From Hyphomicrobium sp. (GTDB lineage Bacteria; Pseudomonadota; Alphaproteobacteria; Rhizobiales; Hyphomicrobiaceae): a stretch of DNA of 35,681 bases. Positions 29,612 through 33,137 of this stretch are shown piece after piece. A model generated the notes under the pieces. The model was not told the DNA's origin. It worked only from the letters and a program-made list of their open reading frames with translations, and searched no databases. Where the stretch lies: the NCBI RefSeq assembly GCF_003987855.1, contig NZ_RXIZ01000004.1, forward strand, positions 226,028-261,708, in the 5' to 3' direction. How positions within the stretch are numbered: the stretch's first letter is position 1; every line of letters begins with the position of its first letter. A program made the position numbers and the translations under genes.

Positions 29612-30336
29612 GCCGTCTCCAGAAGTTCGAGCGCCTGCTTCGCATCGAGTCGCCCATCATAGAGCGCGCGGCCCGTGATGGCGCCTTCGAGCATGCGATA
29701 TTCTGGTTTCATCAGGTCGCGCACATCCTCGATCGACGCAAGACCTCCCGACGCGATCACGGGGATGCCGGTGGCCTTCGCGAGATCGGCGGTCGCGGGC
29801 AGATTGAGGCCTTTGAGAACACCGTCCCGTTCGATGTCGGTGTAGATGATGGCAGCGACACCCGCGTCCTCGAAGCGTTTGGCGAGGTCGATCGCCGAAA
29901 GCTCCGACGTTTCCGCCCAGCCTTCGACGGCCACCTTGCCGCCCTTGGCGTCGATGCCGACCGCGACGCGTCCCGGGAATCGCTTGGCTGCGTCCTTCAC
30001 CAAGGCCGGGTCGCGCACCGCCACCGTTCCGAGGATGACGCGGCGAATACCCTTGTCGAGCCAGGTCTCGATGGTCGCGAGATCCCGGATTCCCCCGCCC
30101 AGCTGCGCCGGCATCTTGATCGCCTTCAGGATCGCTTCGACCGCCGCCGCGTTGACCGGCTTACCGGCGAACGCGCCGTTGAGATCGACGATGTGCAGGT
30201 ACTTGAAGCCCTGGCGCTCAAAACTCGCAGCCTGCGCCGCTGGATCGTCGTTGAACACCGTCGCGGCGTCCATCTCGCCGAGCTTCAGCCGGACGCACTG
30301 GCCGTCCTTGAGGTCAATGGCAGGAAATAGGATCAA
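29608..30336 (-). CDS. hisA: Phosphoribosylformimino-AICAR phosphate isomerase
   Basis: HisA opens the ribose ring of ProFAR to form PRFAR, the HisF-HisH substrate. The 242-residue barrel has [16 protein letters not shown] with the catalytic Asp, [50 protein letters not shown] and [14 protein letters not shown]. The start is a TTG at 30336 (AAGAGAG nearby), with no in-frame ATG before it. An inverted copy of the CCCTCACCC repeat lies just upstream. Confidence 0.97.
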
Positions 30337-30363
30337 TCGTCGTCTCTCTTACGGATGTGCGGC

Positions 30364-30456
30364 GAACTCCCTCTCCTCTTGGAGAGAGGGTCGGGGTGAG
30401 GGGCGTGCCCCTCATCCGGCCTGCGACCAGCTTCTACCCAAGGGGGAGAAAGATCT
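30364..30456 (-). repeat. Dispersed CCCTCACCCTAACCC-type repeat, copy B (inverted)
   Basis: On the minus strand the order TTCTCCCCCTTGGG, GGCCGGATGAGGGGC, GCCCCTCACCCCGACCC and AGAGGAGAGGGAG follows the blocks of copy A at 26381-26462. The two copies point in opposite directions and bracket hisF, prfC and hisA. Copy B begins 28 bases upstream of the hisA start. The rest of 30337-30603 shows no gene. Confidence 0.8.
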
Positions 30457-30603
30457 TGGCGGCCATCAGATTGCTATCTTGGGTTTCTATGTTTCCCGTG
30501 CGATCAATCGCGGATCGCGCGCTACGTCAAGCCCGGCCCTGCGCCTGACGCACGGCGGCCGGATTGGCAAAGCCATGTCGCAGGGCAAAATTGTAGAGTT
30601 CCT

Positions 30604-30918
30604 ATGGCCACCGCGTTTCTCGTCGAACCTCCGCCAGCCGTCGCCCGGCGCCCTCTGACCGAGGAGGACGCCATCGACATCTGGATTGCCCGCTGGCTCA
30701 GGATCCGCCCCACGGACCTGCAGCGCCGTTATGCGTGCGATCCGCGCCGCCTCTATGAAATCTGGGAGGAAGTCCGCTTCCCCGGCACGCGCGCGCAGGC
30801 GCTGGCCGAGTTCCAGCGCCGCTTTCCGGGGCTTGAGCCGCGCTTTGATCCCGGACCGCACCGTCGCGTCCCGACGGCGCCGCATCCCGGGCAATTGAGC
30901 CTGTTTTCAGATAAGTGA
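30604..30918 (+). CDS. Small hypothetical protein at the left of the accessory island
   Basis: A 104-residue protein. The central part, LTEEDAIDIWIARWLRIRP, DLQRRYACDPRRLYEIWEEV and ALAEFQRRFPGL, is helical and basic, like a short DNA- or RNA-binding domain. The tail is Pro-rich and ends GQLSLFSDK. No confident family assignment. It converges with the 77-residue gene at 30941. Confidence 0.65.
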   Translation: MATAFLVEPPPAVARRPLTEEDAIDIWIARWLRIRPTDLQRRYACDPRRLYEIWEEVRFPGTRAQALAEFQRRFPGLEPRFDPGPHRRVPTAPHPGQLSLFSDK

Positions 30919-30940
30919 GCGCCTCAAAGGTCCGGCGCTC

Positions 30941-31174
30941 TTAGAACCCGAAGAACTTCCGCCGCAGAGCGTCCTCGTAGTCCTTCTTCGCGGCCTTCAC
31001 CTTCGACCGCAACTCGTCTTCGGCGAAATGCGCGGCTTCCCATTGGTCCACCTCGGCAACCGAATGGTTGACCGACGCCAGCTCTTCTTCCCGCTTGATT
31101 GCCGCGATCCACTGCTCGACGAGCGCCTTGTAGGCGCTCTGCAGCTGATCCAGTTCCGAGACGTTGTCGTCCAT
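30941..31174 (-). CDS. Small coiled-coil hypothetical protein
   Basis: A 77-residue protein from ATG 31174, preceded by GGGAGATGTGAG. It is almost wholly helical and charged (SELDQLQSAYKALVEQW, AIKREEELASVNHSVAE, DELRSKVKAAKKDYEDAL), with a predicted coiled coil and the end RRKFFGF. It points away from the LexA-box region (31308-31369), which lies 134 bases upstream of its start, so it might share that control. Function is unknown. Confidence 0.7.
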   Translation of the reverse strand: MDDNVSELDQLQSAYKALVEQWIAAIKREEELASVNHSVAEVDQWEAAHFAEDELRSKVKAAKKDYEDALRRKFFGF

Positions 31175-31307
31175 CTCACATCTCCCGCAAGGCTTCGGGA
31201 CGGTGTCTAGCGGCTCTGCGTGACCCGCCGACGACAAACCCGCGCAACATCAGGCCAAAGGCCGACGCTGGAGAGTTGCATAATCATCCGCAGCCCAGAA
31301 CGTCGAA

Positions 31308-31322
31308 GAACATTTTTGGAAC
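31308..31322 (-). promoter_or_regulatory. Candidate LexA operator, reverse orientation
   Basis: GAACATTTTTGGAAC reads GAAC-N7-GAAC, the reverse complement of the alphaproteobacterial LexA box GTTC-N7-GTTC. All eight specified bases match. It overlaps the candidate -35 box at 31316-31321. A second match lies 32 bases downstream in the other orientation. Confidence 0.65.
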
Positions 31323-31344
31323 AAACACTGGACAGACGGATAGA
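31316..31344 (+). promoter_or_regulatory. Candidate promoter of the Cas2-like gene
   Basis: TTGGAA (31316-31321) and GATAGA (31339-31344) are spaced by 17 bases. Transcription would start near 31351, with the -35 inside the first LexA box and the start just before the second. LexA bound at both would block polymerase. Confidence 0.5.
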
Positions 31345-31354
31345 GTCGTGGCAT

Positions 31355-31369
31355 GTTCTCCCTATGTTC
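31355..31369 (+). promoter_or_regulatory. Candidate LexA operator, forward orientation
   Basis: GTTCTCCCTATGTTC is an exact GTTC-N7-GTTC, the direct-repeat LexA box of alphaproteobacteria. It lies 79 bases before the ATG of the Cas2-like gene and just after the candidate transcription start. Confidence 0.7.
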
Positions 31370-31447
31370 ACGACGCCCTAAATGAGGCGCCAAACCGGGT
31401 CAGAGTAGTGCGTTCGACCCTCTCGAATAACCTTAGGAGAGCCCCCC

Positions 31448-31816
31448 ATGCGCACCTATCTGATCTCTTACGACCTCGCCCATCCGACCCGCAATCAGCA
31501 CGTCCTCGCCCAGACCATCATGGGCATCGGCGACAAGTGGGCACGGCCTCTCTCGAACACCTGGTACGTGATGTCCGAGCGCGAGGAAGTCGAACTCGAA
31601 GCCGACCTCAGGGCACTCCTCGCAGAAGACGACGGTCTCCTCATCCAGGCGACCAAGCGTGATGCGGCGATGACCAACACGTCGCTACGCTGGTTCCGTC
31701 AGCGGCGCCCGGGTCTCGACCTCGCCCCGGATGGCAACATCATCGCTTTCCCGCTACCTGCGACGCCGGCAGCCGAGCCGATGGAGCCCGAACTGCCCTT
31801 CGCCAAGGCGGGCTGA
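31448..31816 (+). CDS. Stand-alone Cas2/SinR-fold small protein
   Basis: A 122-residue protein with AGGAGAG before its ATG. The first strand TYLISYDLAHP has Asp 9 at the place of the conserved Cas2 Asp, then a helix NQHVLAQTIMGIGDKW, strand NTWYVMS, helix ELEADLRALLAEDDGLLIQA and TSLRWFRQRR. This ferredoxin-like order is shared by Cas2, VapD and SinR-like proteins, some of which are RNases or DNases. No cas1, effector or repeat array lies in the window. The tail is Pro/Ala-rich. Two LexA boxes upstream suggest SOS control, and a strong terminator follows. The next gene is a diverged paralogue. Confidence 0.8.
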   Translation: MRTYLISYDLAHPTRNQHVLAQTIMGIGDKWARPLSNTWYVMSEREEVELEADLRALLAEDDGLLIQATKRDAAMTNTSLRWFRQRRPGLDLAPDGNIIAFPLPATPAAEPMEPELPFAKAG

Positions 31817-31835
31817 AATCGCGACGAATTCCGGT

Positions 31836-31876
31836 CTTTGGGCGGGGCGGGTTTCTCCCCCCTGCCGTTCCCAAAG
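31836..31876 (+). repeat. Inverted repeat downstream of the Cas2-like gene
   Basis: CTTTGGG (31836-31842) pairs with CCCAAAG (31870-31876), with additional G-run/C-run pairing inside. It starts 19 bases after the stop codon. It may stabilise the 3' end of the mRNA. Confidence 0.55.
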
Positions 31877-31903
31877 GGCTCGTCCCGTCCAAAGCCCGAT
31901 GCT

Positions 31904-31965
31904 GGAGCTCCGGGGATCACGACTGACCTGTACCCTCAGCGGTCATGATCCCCGGCTCCTTTTTT
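31904..31965 (+). terminator. Intrinsic terminator between the two related genes
   Basis: The left arm GGAGCTCCGGGGATCA and the right arm TGATCCCCGGCTCC (to 31959) pair with a two-base bulge, extended inside by TGACC/GGTCA, and are followed by TTTTTT (31960-31965). It implies that the second gene has its own promoter or depends on read-through; TTGAAG (31964-31969) and TTTGTT (31987-31992), 17 apart, are a weak option. Confidence 0.85.
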
Positions 31966-32027
31966 GAAGTGGCGTACTGCGTTTCCTTTGTTCCGCTCCC
32001 CCAGCGCCTCTCCCCCGGATCAGCGTC

Positions 32028-32375
32028 ATGAAAACCTTCCTTCTCCATCAGACCCCCAAATCCGCCAACCAGGACACCTGGACGGTGACGTTCTCGCTTC
32101 CCTACATCGCCACCGAATATGCTCCCGCCGGTAACGGCGTCTGGTACGTCCGAAGCTGGCTCGGCGCCGAGCAGATCAAGCGCCGTCTCGCTATCCTGTT
32201 CGATCATCCCGATGAGCTGATCGTGCATGAATTGGGACGTGCCGACTTGGCCGGCACCGCCAAGCTCAAATGGCTCGAAGGACGCCTCGAAGACGACGAC
32301 ATGGATGCCTCATGGCACGTGCCGCGCGGCGTCTGGACGGTCATTCAGTCCGCGGTCGGCACGCTCGCCCGCTGA
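32028..32375 (+). CDS. Diverged paralogue of the Cas2-like protein
   Basis: A 115-residue protein. It aligns end to end with the upstream Cas2-like protein: MKTFLLHQ against MRTYLISY, NGVWYVRSW against SNTWYVMSE, QIKRRLAILFDHPDELIVHEL against ELEADLRALLAEDDGLLIQAT, and TAKLKWLEGRL against TSLRWFRQRR. The Asp of the Cas2 YD motif is absent here, so a catalytic role is doubtful and it may partner or regulate the first protein. The ribosome-binding site is weak. No named family is recognised. Confidence 0.72.
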   Translation: MKTFLLHQTPKSANQDTWTVTFSLPYIATEYAPAGNGVWYVRSWLGAEQIKRRLAILFDHPDELIVHELGRADLAGTAKLKWLEGRLEDDDMDASWHVPRGVWTVIQSAVGTLAR

Positions 32376-32409
32376 CTCCATCTGACGGCAAGCCATCAAG
32401 CCCCGCGTC

Positions 32410-32433
32410 ATGGCCGCTCCTGAGAGCGGCCAT
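32410..32433 (+). repeat. Dispersed palindrome (CATGGCCG family)
   Basis: ATGGCCGCTC (32410-32419) pairs perfectly with GAGCGGCCAT (32424-32433). It sits between the Cas2-paralogue and the convergent hisH. The core resembles the elements after leuC and leuD. Confidence 0.7.
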
Positions 32434-32483
32434 CGACGTCTGCGATGGCACGCGGCCGGCCCGAGGCTTCGCGCGCGGCCGCG

Positions 32484-33137
32484 TTACGGCGTCCACTTCA
32501 AGAAATTGGCGATGAGCTTCAGCCCGAGCTTCTGGCTCTTTTCCGGGTGAAACTGCGTGCCTGCGATGTTGCCGTCGCCGACGATCGCCGTAATCGGGCC
32601 GCCGTAATCCGTCTCAGCCACGACGACCCGTCGCTCGGTGGGCGTCATCGCGAACGAATGCACGAAGTAGGCGTGCCACCCATCGGGTCCTGTCGGGATC
32701 CCATCAAGCAGCGCGTGCGGGGTGACAACGTCGAGCGTGTTCCAGCCCATGTGCGGGATCTTGAGAGCCGGATCCTTCGGCTCGATCGCGCGCACCTCGC
32801 CCTTGATCCAGCCGAGCCCCGGCGTCTCGACGAATTCGAGCCCGCGTTCGGATAGAAGCTGCATGCCGACGCAAATGCCGAGAAAGGGCCGCCCCTTGTG
32901 ACGCACGGTCTCTTCCAGTGCCGCGATTAATCCAGGGACGCGCTCGAGCCCGTGCTTGCAATCGCCATAGGCACCAACCCCCGGCAGCACGATCCGGTCA
33001 GCGGAGAGAACATCCTCGGGCCTTGGACTGACGATGATCTTCGCATCAGCCGAGCTGTCGCGCGCCGCGCTCTCGAACGCCTTCGCCGCCGAGTGCAGGT
33101 TACCTGACCCGTAATCGATGATGACGACGCTTTGCAT
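32484..33137 (-). CDS. hisH: Imidazole glycerol phosphate synthase, glutaminase subunit
   Basis: HisH supplies ammonia to HisF. The 217-residue class I glutamine amidotransferase has [32 protein letters not shown], the nucleophile Cys in [11 protein letters not shown] and His/Glu in [16 protein letters not shown] 33137 fits the family; the longer frame to 33215 was rejected. An accessory island separates it from hisA. Confidence 0.97.

Follow-up and report, generated by a model that had tools for sequence, protein, structure and literature searches.

Cas2-like proteins are found outside CRISPR systems on chromosomes, on plasmids and in phages. Among the described examples, BPSL1038 of Burkholderia pseudomallei is reported in PMC10491678 as a stand-alone, CRISPR-free DNase of the Cas2/VapD type, and VapW is presented in PMC11980593 as a VapD homologue that lacks the catalytic residues and acts as an antitoxin. 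With regard to regulation, SymE is described as an E. coli toxin that is under LexA control and is also held down by proteolysis (PMC1891008). In Caulobacter, the LexA box has been published as GTTC-N7-GTTC, and about 97% of SOS promoters are reported to carry a single box only (PMC12700426). In this study, we analyzed CAS2A, a gene located in a stretch of DNA of 35,681 nucleotides (the window) that corresponds to positions 226028-261708 of contig C17 in an assembly of 3.78 Mb. The closest named relatives of the organism belong to Hyphomicrobium (Hyphomicrobiaceae, Hyphomicrobiales), among them H. facile DSM 1565, to which the protein identity is 84%.

CAS2A resembles CRISPR-associated Cas2 (PF09827; Cas2b and Cas2g of PADLOC) in its predicted ferredoxin-like core, in the aspartate that ends strand 1, and in profile similarity over residues 3-72. 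Unlike CRISPR Cas2, it resides in a genome in which no match to Cas1 was found, has its own predicted LexA-controlled promoter and an extra C-terminal region with a degron-like end, and falls below detection by Pfam and NCBIfam. BPSL1038 was the best Foldseek hit of our first CAS2A model, but the D(X20)SST site described for it (PMC10491678) is absent from CAS2A, in which residues 30-32 read K-W-A and the nearest SST candidate, S36-N37-T38, lies six residues too far from D9; the main text of that paper does not contain the word SOS. The VapD-VapW system has in common with CAS2A in Hyphomicrobium the combination of a Cas2-related protein (a putative nuclease) and a neighboring paralogue without the aspartate. 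VapD toxins are described as inducing the SOS response when overproduced (PMC11980593), whereas CAS2A would itself be SOS induced. SymE is a parallel in control, as a small, SOS-induced protein subject to LexA and to proteolysis, which for CAS2A is a prediction; however, SymE is described as homologous to the antitoxin MazE and not to Cas2, and as being repressed additionally by the antisense RNA SymR (PMC1891008), whereas an Rfam scan of 30300-32500 around CAS2A returned one sub-threshold match that we take as chance. Among the titles and abstract openings of the literature matches listed, in which subscription journals are thinly covered, we found no LexA-controlled Cas2-like gene.

We propose that CAS2A is a chromosomal gene belonging to the SOS regulon of Hyphomicrobiaceae. 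LexA would occupy two inverted boxes, the first located just upstream of the -35 element and the second covering the -10/start region, and would keep CAS2A tightly off; DNA damage would release it through RecA-stimulated cleavage of LexA. The product would be a Cas2-fold protein, divergent and independent of CRISPR, that acts briefly on nucleic acid and either slows growth or replication or processes damaged DNA; it is probably an endonuclease that works as a homodimer through a pair of D9 residues. A ClpXP-type protease would then probably remove it via its C-terminal Ala-x, a control logic resembling that of E. coli SymE. What the sequences show are the boxes and their conservation, the identical box at lexA, the Cas2 relationship and fold, the conserved aspartate, and the conserved C-terminal end; that LexA binds and that the gene is induced, its nuclease activity and substrate, its degradation, and its physiological role are what we infer. 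Our confidence that CAS2A is a Cas2-fold nuclease induced in the SOS response is moderate, and it is lower for the degron step and for the physiological outcome. A broader picture, in which a family-wide CRISPR-free Cas2-fold nuclease serves as a damage effector with a two-LexA-site lock and proteolytic clearance, and in which a catalytically dead duplicate modulates it in Hyphomicrobium, is one that we put forward tentatively. If this is true, the Cas2 fold would gain a new biological role and the SOS effectors a new class. A family-wide LexA operator would provide a defined trigger, DNA damage, for a non-CRISPR Cas2-like protein, so that the role of CAS2A becomes directly testable. Should CAS2A cut DNA or RNA after damage, it would connect the SOS response, on its effector side, with the Cas2/VapD nucleases and would also bear on the proposal, made in PMC3506569, that Cas2 originated as a toxin-like nuclease.

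The Cas2-related protein and its C-terminal tail

The features of the protein are as follows.

31448..31816, plus strand: CAS2A, Cas2-fold protein of 122 aa with the end ...ELPFAKAG (from profile comparison, PADLOC, and predicted fold)
Codon 31472-31474, plus strand: D9, the position of the Cas2 catalytic Asp (from the orthologue alignment)
31808..31813, plus strand: Ala-Gly, the last two residues, degron-like (Ala plus a small residue is conserved)

A protein search of 103 Hyphomicrobiaceae genomes recovered CAS2A in 89 of them, including 70 of 76 good-quality genomes and 24 of 25 genera, with orthologues ranging down to 33% identity. The 89 do not include the second matches found in G289 and G327, and the orthologue counts given here describe related genomes and not independent events. 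The proteins of G299, G301, and G302, where the match runs over a stop, were read only to the first stop, and L025, which has an internal stop, was left out of the protein alignments.

The first-pass annotation had assigned the product to the Cas2 fold and had named a structure prediction compared with Cas2 as a check, and both sequence profiles and predicted structures agree with that assignment. PADLOC matched the window protein to Cas2b (E 6.1e-5) and Cas2g (E 0.0035). Pfam and NCBIfam made no Cas2 call for it; among 26 homologues, one reached Pfam Cas2 (E 0.054) and one reached NCBIfam cas2 (E 0.18). HHalign comparison of the 89-orthologue profile with 28 Cas2 proteins of the order (28 of 30 loci, with L218 and L219 left out) gave an E value of 9.8e-6, a probability of 82.5, and a score of 34.9 over residues 3-72, versus at most 19.0 for 100 column shuffles and 16.7 for the reversed profile. 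A sequence search of the PDB gave no match with the single protein and only three chance-level hits with the profile. The first AlphaFold model was poor (mean pLDDT, 60). The second, from 14 sequences, had a mean pLDDT of 63, with ten-residue blocks over residues 1-70 at 74-86, and its predicted ferredoxin-like core runs strand-helix-strand-strand-helix-strand plus a further helix, with an unreliable tail at residues 86-122. In a Foldseek search with the second model, one of the 17 best-ranked PDB chains was GhoS and the other 16 belonged to Cas2 or to the Cas2-like BPSL1038; two of the sixteen, 1zpw and 3exc, are not labeled Cas2 but we take them to be Cas2. The best match was a Cas2 (E 2e-3; probability, 1.00). 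Neither model had a Foldseek match at an E value of 0.001, and the viral fold library gave no match at that threshold and none that was convincing. As judged from these profiles and models, CAS2A is very likely a divergent relative of Cas2.

The D9 position holds Asp in 88 of the 89 orthologues and Glu in the remaining one, and W31, A32, P34, L35, W39, Q67, and W82 are invariant. Not every CRISPR Cas2 protein works by catalysis, so a conserved Asp is no proof of cleavage. CAS2A could instead be a LexA-controlled, non-catalytic Cas2-fold protein that binds DNA or serves as an adaptor, aiding repair or replication-fork handling during the SOS response, a role that the LexA boxes and the predicted fold would also fit. 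The ELP[FL] tail seen in many genera, loosely like a beta-clamp peptide, would then recruit CAS2A to the replisome; [EQ]xELP[FL] is present near the end of 54/89 orthologues, and the product of the adjacent upstream gene ends with Q[LM]xLF, the classical beta-clamp-binding form, in 54 of its 70 orthologues that were read. However, the tail motif is missing from 35/89 CAS2A orthologues whereas the Asp is retained in 88/89, which is the pattern expected if chemistry matters, and we regard a purely non-catalytic role as unlikely.

The very end of the tail is its conserved part. The penultimate residue is Ala in 89/89 orthologues and the last is C, A, S, G, or V in 89/89, while the rest of the tail is variable. 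In a background set of ORFs of at least 200 aa, taken unfiltered from all six frames of family loci in related genomes, 13/159 end in Ala followed by one of these residues. C termini consisting of Ala and a small residue are known ClpXP signals, and the CAS2A C terminus resembles such a degron. It would thus suit a protein that is needed only briefly, although degradation is a less certain part of the model.

The upstream gene (30604-30918, plus strand) encodes a 104-aa protein with no Pfam match that ends in GQLSLFSDK. Its 70 orthologues come from 32 of the 37 loci with long upstream flanks and, for the rest, from shorter flanks; other orthologues seem to have related ends (e.g., QPGLF).

The downstream paralogue CAS2B

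Two features lie downstream of CAS2A in the window.

31904..31965, plus strand: terminator-like hairpin with U6 tail, in the CAS2A-CAS2B gap (from the predicted fold)
32028..32375, plus strand: CAS2B, an Asp-less paralogue of CAS2A with 115 aa (the two are 20% identical over 86 aa)

CAS2B, which weakly matches phrog_1090 (E 0.0081), follows CAS2A in 23 of the 89 genomes, namely all 19 Hyphomicrobium genomes that have CAS2A and four others. This association raises the idea of a toxin-antitoxin pair, with CAS2A as toxin and the Asp-less CAS2B as antitoxin, as in VapD-VapW, where a VapD homologue without catalytic residues is described in the antitoxin role (PMC11980593). VapW is a precedent for CAS2B by analogy, not a demonstration. 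Against the parallel, 18 genomes whose downstream flank extends 1.4-1.5 kb have CAS2A without a detectable CAS2B (in 48 more, coverage extended only 479-615 bp downstream). The weak similarity of the two proteins, a LexA box in only 1 of the 23 CAS2A-CAS2B gaps, and the hairpin that separates the genes in the window also speak against the pair, which we consider improbable. The fold of 31895-31972 has a predicted energy of -35.6 kcal/mol (z -3.9). A simple terminator scan did not list the hairpin, probably because its loop region exceeds the limit of the scan.

Paired LexA-type boxes and their regulator

The predicted promoter region of CAS2A contains the following features.

31308..31322, minus strand: predicted distal LexA box, exact GTTC-N7-GTTC, GTTCCAAAAATGTTC
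31328..31334, plus strand: CTGGACA, the likely -35 element between the boxes (invariant in 7/7 sequences of the genus alignment)
31352..31357, plus strand: CATGTT, probably a weak -10 element, separated from TGGACA by 17 nt and overlapping the proximal box (from spacing and conservation)
31355..31369, plus strand: predicted proximal LexA box, exact GTTC-N7-GTTC, GTTCTCCCTATGTTC, overlapping the presumed -10/start region

The two exact boxes had been noticed in the first reading of the sequence, and their positions, letters, opposite orientations, and the 32 bp between them are all confirmed. The promoter proposed at that time, TTGGAA-N17-GATAGA, did not hold up: TTGGAA lies mostly within the distal box, GATAGA is variable, and we rejected the assignment on the pattern of conservation, as neither hexamer is conserved. 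The most conserved stretch between the boxes in the genus alignment is CTGGACA, and CTnGAC is strongly conserved across 58 aligned promoters. In the arrangement TGGACA-N17-CATGTT, the distal box would sit just upstream of the -35 element and the proximal box would cover the -10/start region; a consensus promoter scan lists no promoter there, and hence this placement is one that we infer.

We discarded the number of motif matches alone as evidence. GTTC-N7-GTTC occurs 3 times in the window versus 1.45 expected, a number that 19 of 100 shuffles reach, and 117 times in the genome versus 104 for the reversed control, both at chance level. The arrangement of the boxes is a different matter. An inverted pair with a gap of 27-37 bp occurs once in this genome and the control occurs not at all, consistent with the earlier view that the pair is unlikely to have arisen by chance. 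Among 13 sampled Hyphomicrobiaceae genomes, 10 have exactly one such pair, always at the CAS2A promoter, and the remaining 3 have none by the exact 27-37 bp gap pattern.

It is conservation upstream of orthologues, named beforehand as a check, that settles the matter. Upstream DNA was obtained for all 89 orthologues, and every one has at least one exact GTTC-N7-GTTC box within 260 bp of the start. In the same test, the reversed half-site control, CTTG-N7-CTTG, was found at 1/89 and six other words at 0-8/89, and altering the GTTC spacer gave 8/89 for N6 and 2/89 for N8. Inverted pairs whose starts are 40-59 bp apart are present at 73/89, and at 69/89 the starts are 46-48 bp apart. In three of the sixteen genomes without a 40-59 bp pair (G257, G323, and G325), two inverted boxes lie 35 bp apart, and nine genomes have a second distal box that overlaps the first, 11 bp further out. 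The position of the proximal box relative to the start codon ranges from -200 to -27; since the distance from pair to start varies, the spacing within the pair is the conserved property. By the standard of Caulobacter, with its roughly 97% of single-box promoters, a double operator is unusual.

The regulator that reads these boxes is almost certainly LexA, because the principal lexA gene has the identical box, exactly one exact copy within 500 bp upstream, in 13/13 family genomes tested. The two extra LexA-like genes have no exact box within 500 bp upstream. Taken with the family-wide boxes, the lexA result supports the suggestion of the first-pass annotation that a Cas2-fold gene is under SOS control, and we are highly confident in predicting that CAS2A is LexA controlled. 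The recA gene (loci L103-L115) has an exact box within 500 bp upstream in only 3/13 family genomes and may have a variant box or none; this low count argues mildly against a uniform operator code and leaves the lexA result untouched. The recA count and the near lack of genome-wide enrichment of the motif alone (117 versus 104) are what one might cite for a different regulator with the same GTTC-N7-GTTC half-sites, but the box at 13/13 principal lexA genes and its identity with the LexA box published for a relative within the Alphaproteobacteria make such a regulator highly improbable.

In the loci whose upstream DNA was covered, the gene for the 104-aa protein upstream of CAS2A mostly has no LexA box to itself; in genus g2, 5/6 genomes have one at -24 to -28 of that gene.

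Chromosomal setting and distribution

CAS2A lies between hisH and hisA, both of which are on the opposite strand. Beyond hisA are genes for an RF3-type release factor and a hisF-like protein, and beyond hisH is a DUF2628 gene. In 18 family loci that were checked, some with flanks of only 1.5 kb, hisA adjoins CAS2A in 17 and hisH is visible on the opposite side in 14. No Pfam-detectable Cas2 is present in this genome, in keeping, together with the absence of a Cas1 match, with the earlier description of a Cas2-fold gene outside CRISPR, and across the family Cas1 is found in 22/103 genomes versus 89/103 for CAS2A.

A profile search of the order found relatives in 41/297 genomes, 13 in the family and 28 outside it, and we read 17 of the latter. 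Ten of these, from four other families (f8, f15, f30, and f48), are located beside hisA, nine of them with hisH on the opposite side, and the other seven have no his neighbor. CAS2A looks like an old chromosomal resident, since its relatives lie beside hisA both within and outside the family. At the ten same-site relatives, Asp is kept in four and absent in six; a lone exact box lies within 300 bp of three of them, and no box pair was found at any. The expectation that the boxes would be conserved upstream of orthologues is therefore borne out within Hyphomicrobiaceae but does not extend to these relatives in other families, and double LexA control looks like a feature of Hyphomicrobiaceae. 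That CAS2A serves against phages or belongs to a mobile element and has borrowed its SOS control from a prophage, as its match to phrog_1090, a phage protein family of unknown function (E 1.2e-9), and the 58 plasmid and 16 phage records among distant relatives of the homologue L021 might suggest, is extremely unlikely given the hisA neighbor in 17/18 family loci and in ten loci of four other families, identified window neighbors that are his genes, RF3, and DUF2628, and no plasmid match to the window protein.

A divergent ORF at 30941-31237 was considered as a co-target of the distal box and rejected, as it is poorly conserved. It is present in 2/6 genus loci with 5-kb flanks, and tblastn found it in 4/89 oriented loci including the window's own, where 52/89 have only 478-600 bp upstream.

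Across the order, an inverted pair with the 27-37 bp gap occurs somewhere in 42/297 genomes versus a control match in 4/297, the latter being our own count from the listed rows. We read the neighboring ORFs at 20 of 30 inverted-pair loci, a set in which ten are CAS2A promoters. At four loci (L059-L062; genus g86, family f42), the pairs precede a protein of about 165-180 aa with the motif LEHRxxGYFIAR, which is perhaps another SOS gene. Inverted pairs also lie near ORFs at L067, L068, L073, L074, and L086 (families f40, f43, and f44); the ORFs at L067, L073, L074, and L086 appear helicase-like by eye (GPTNTGKT), and the N terminus of that at L068 resembles the N terminus of L067.
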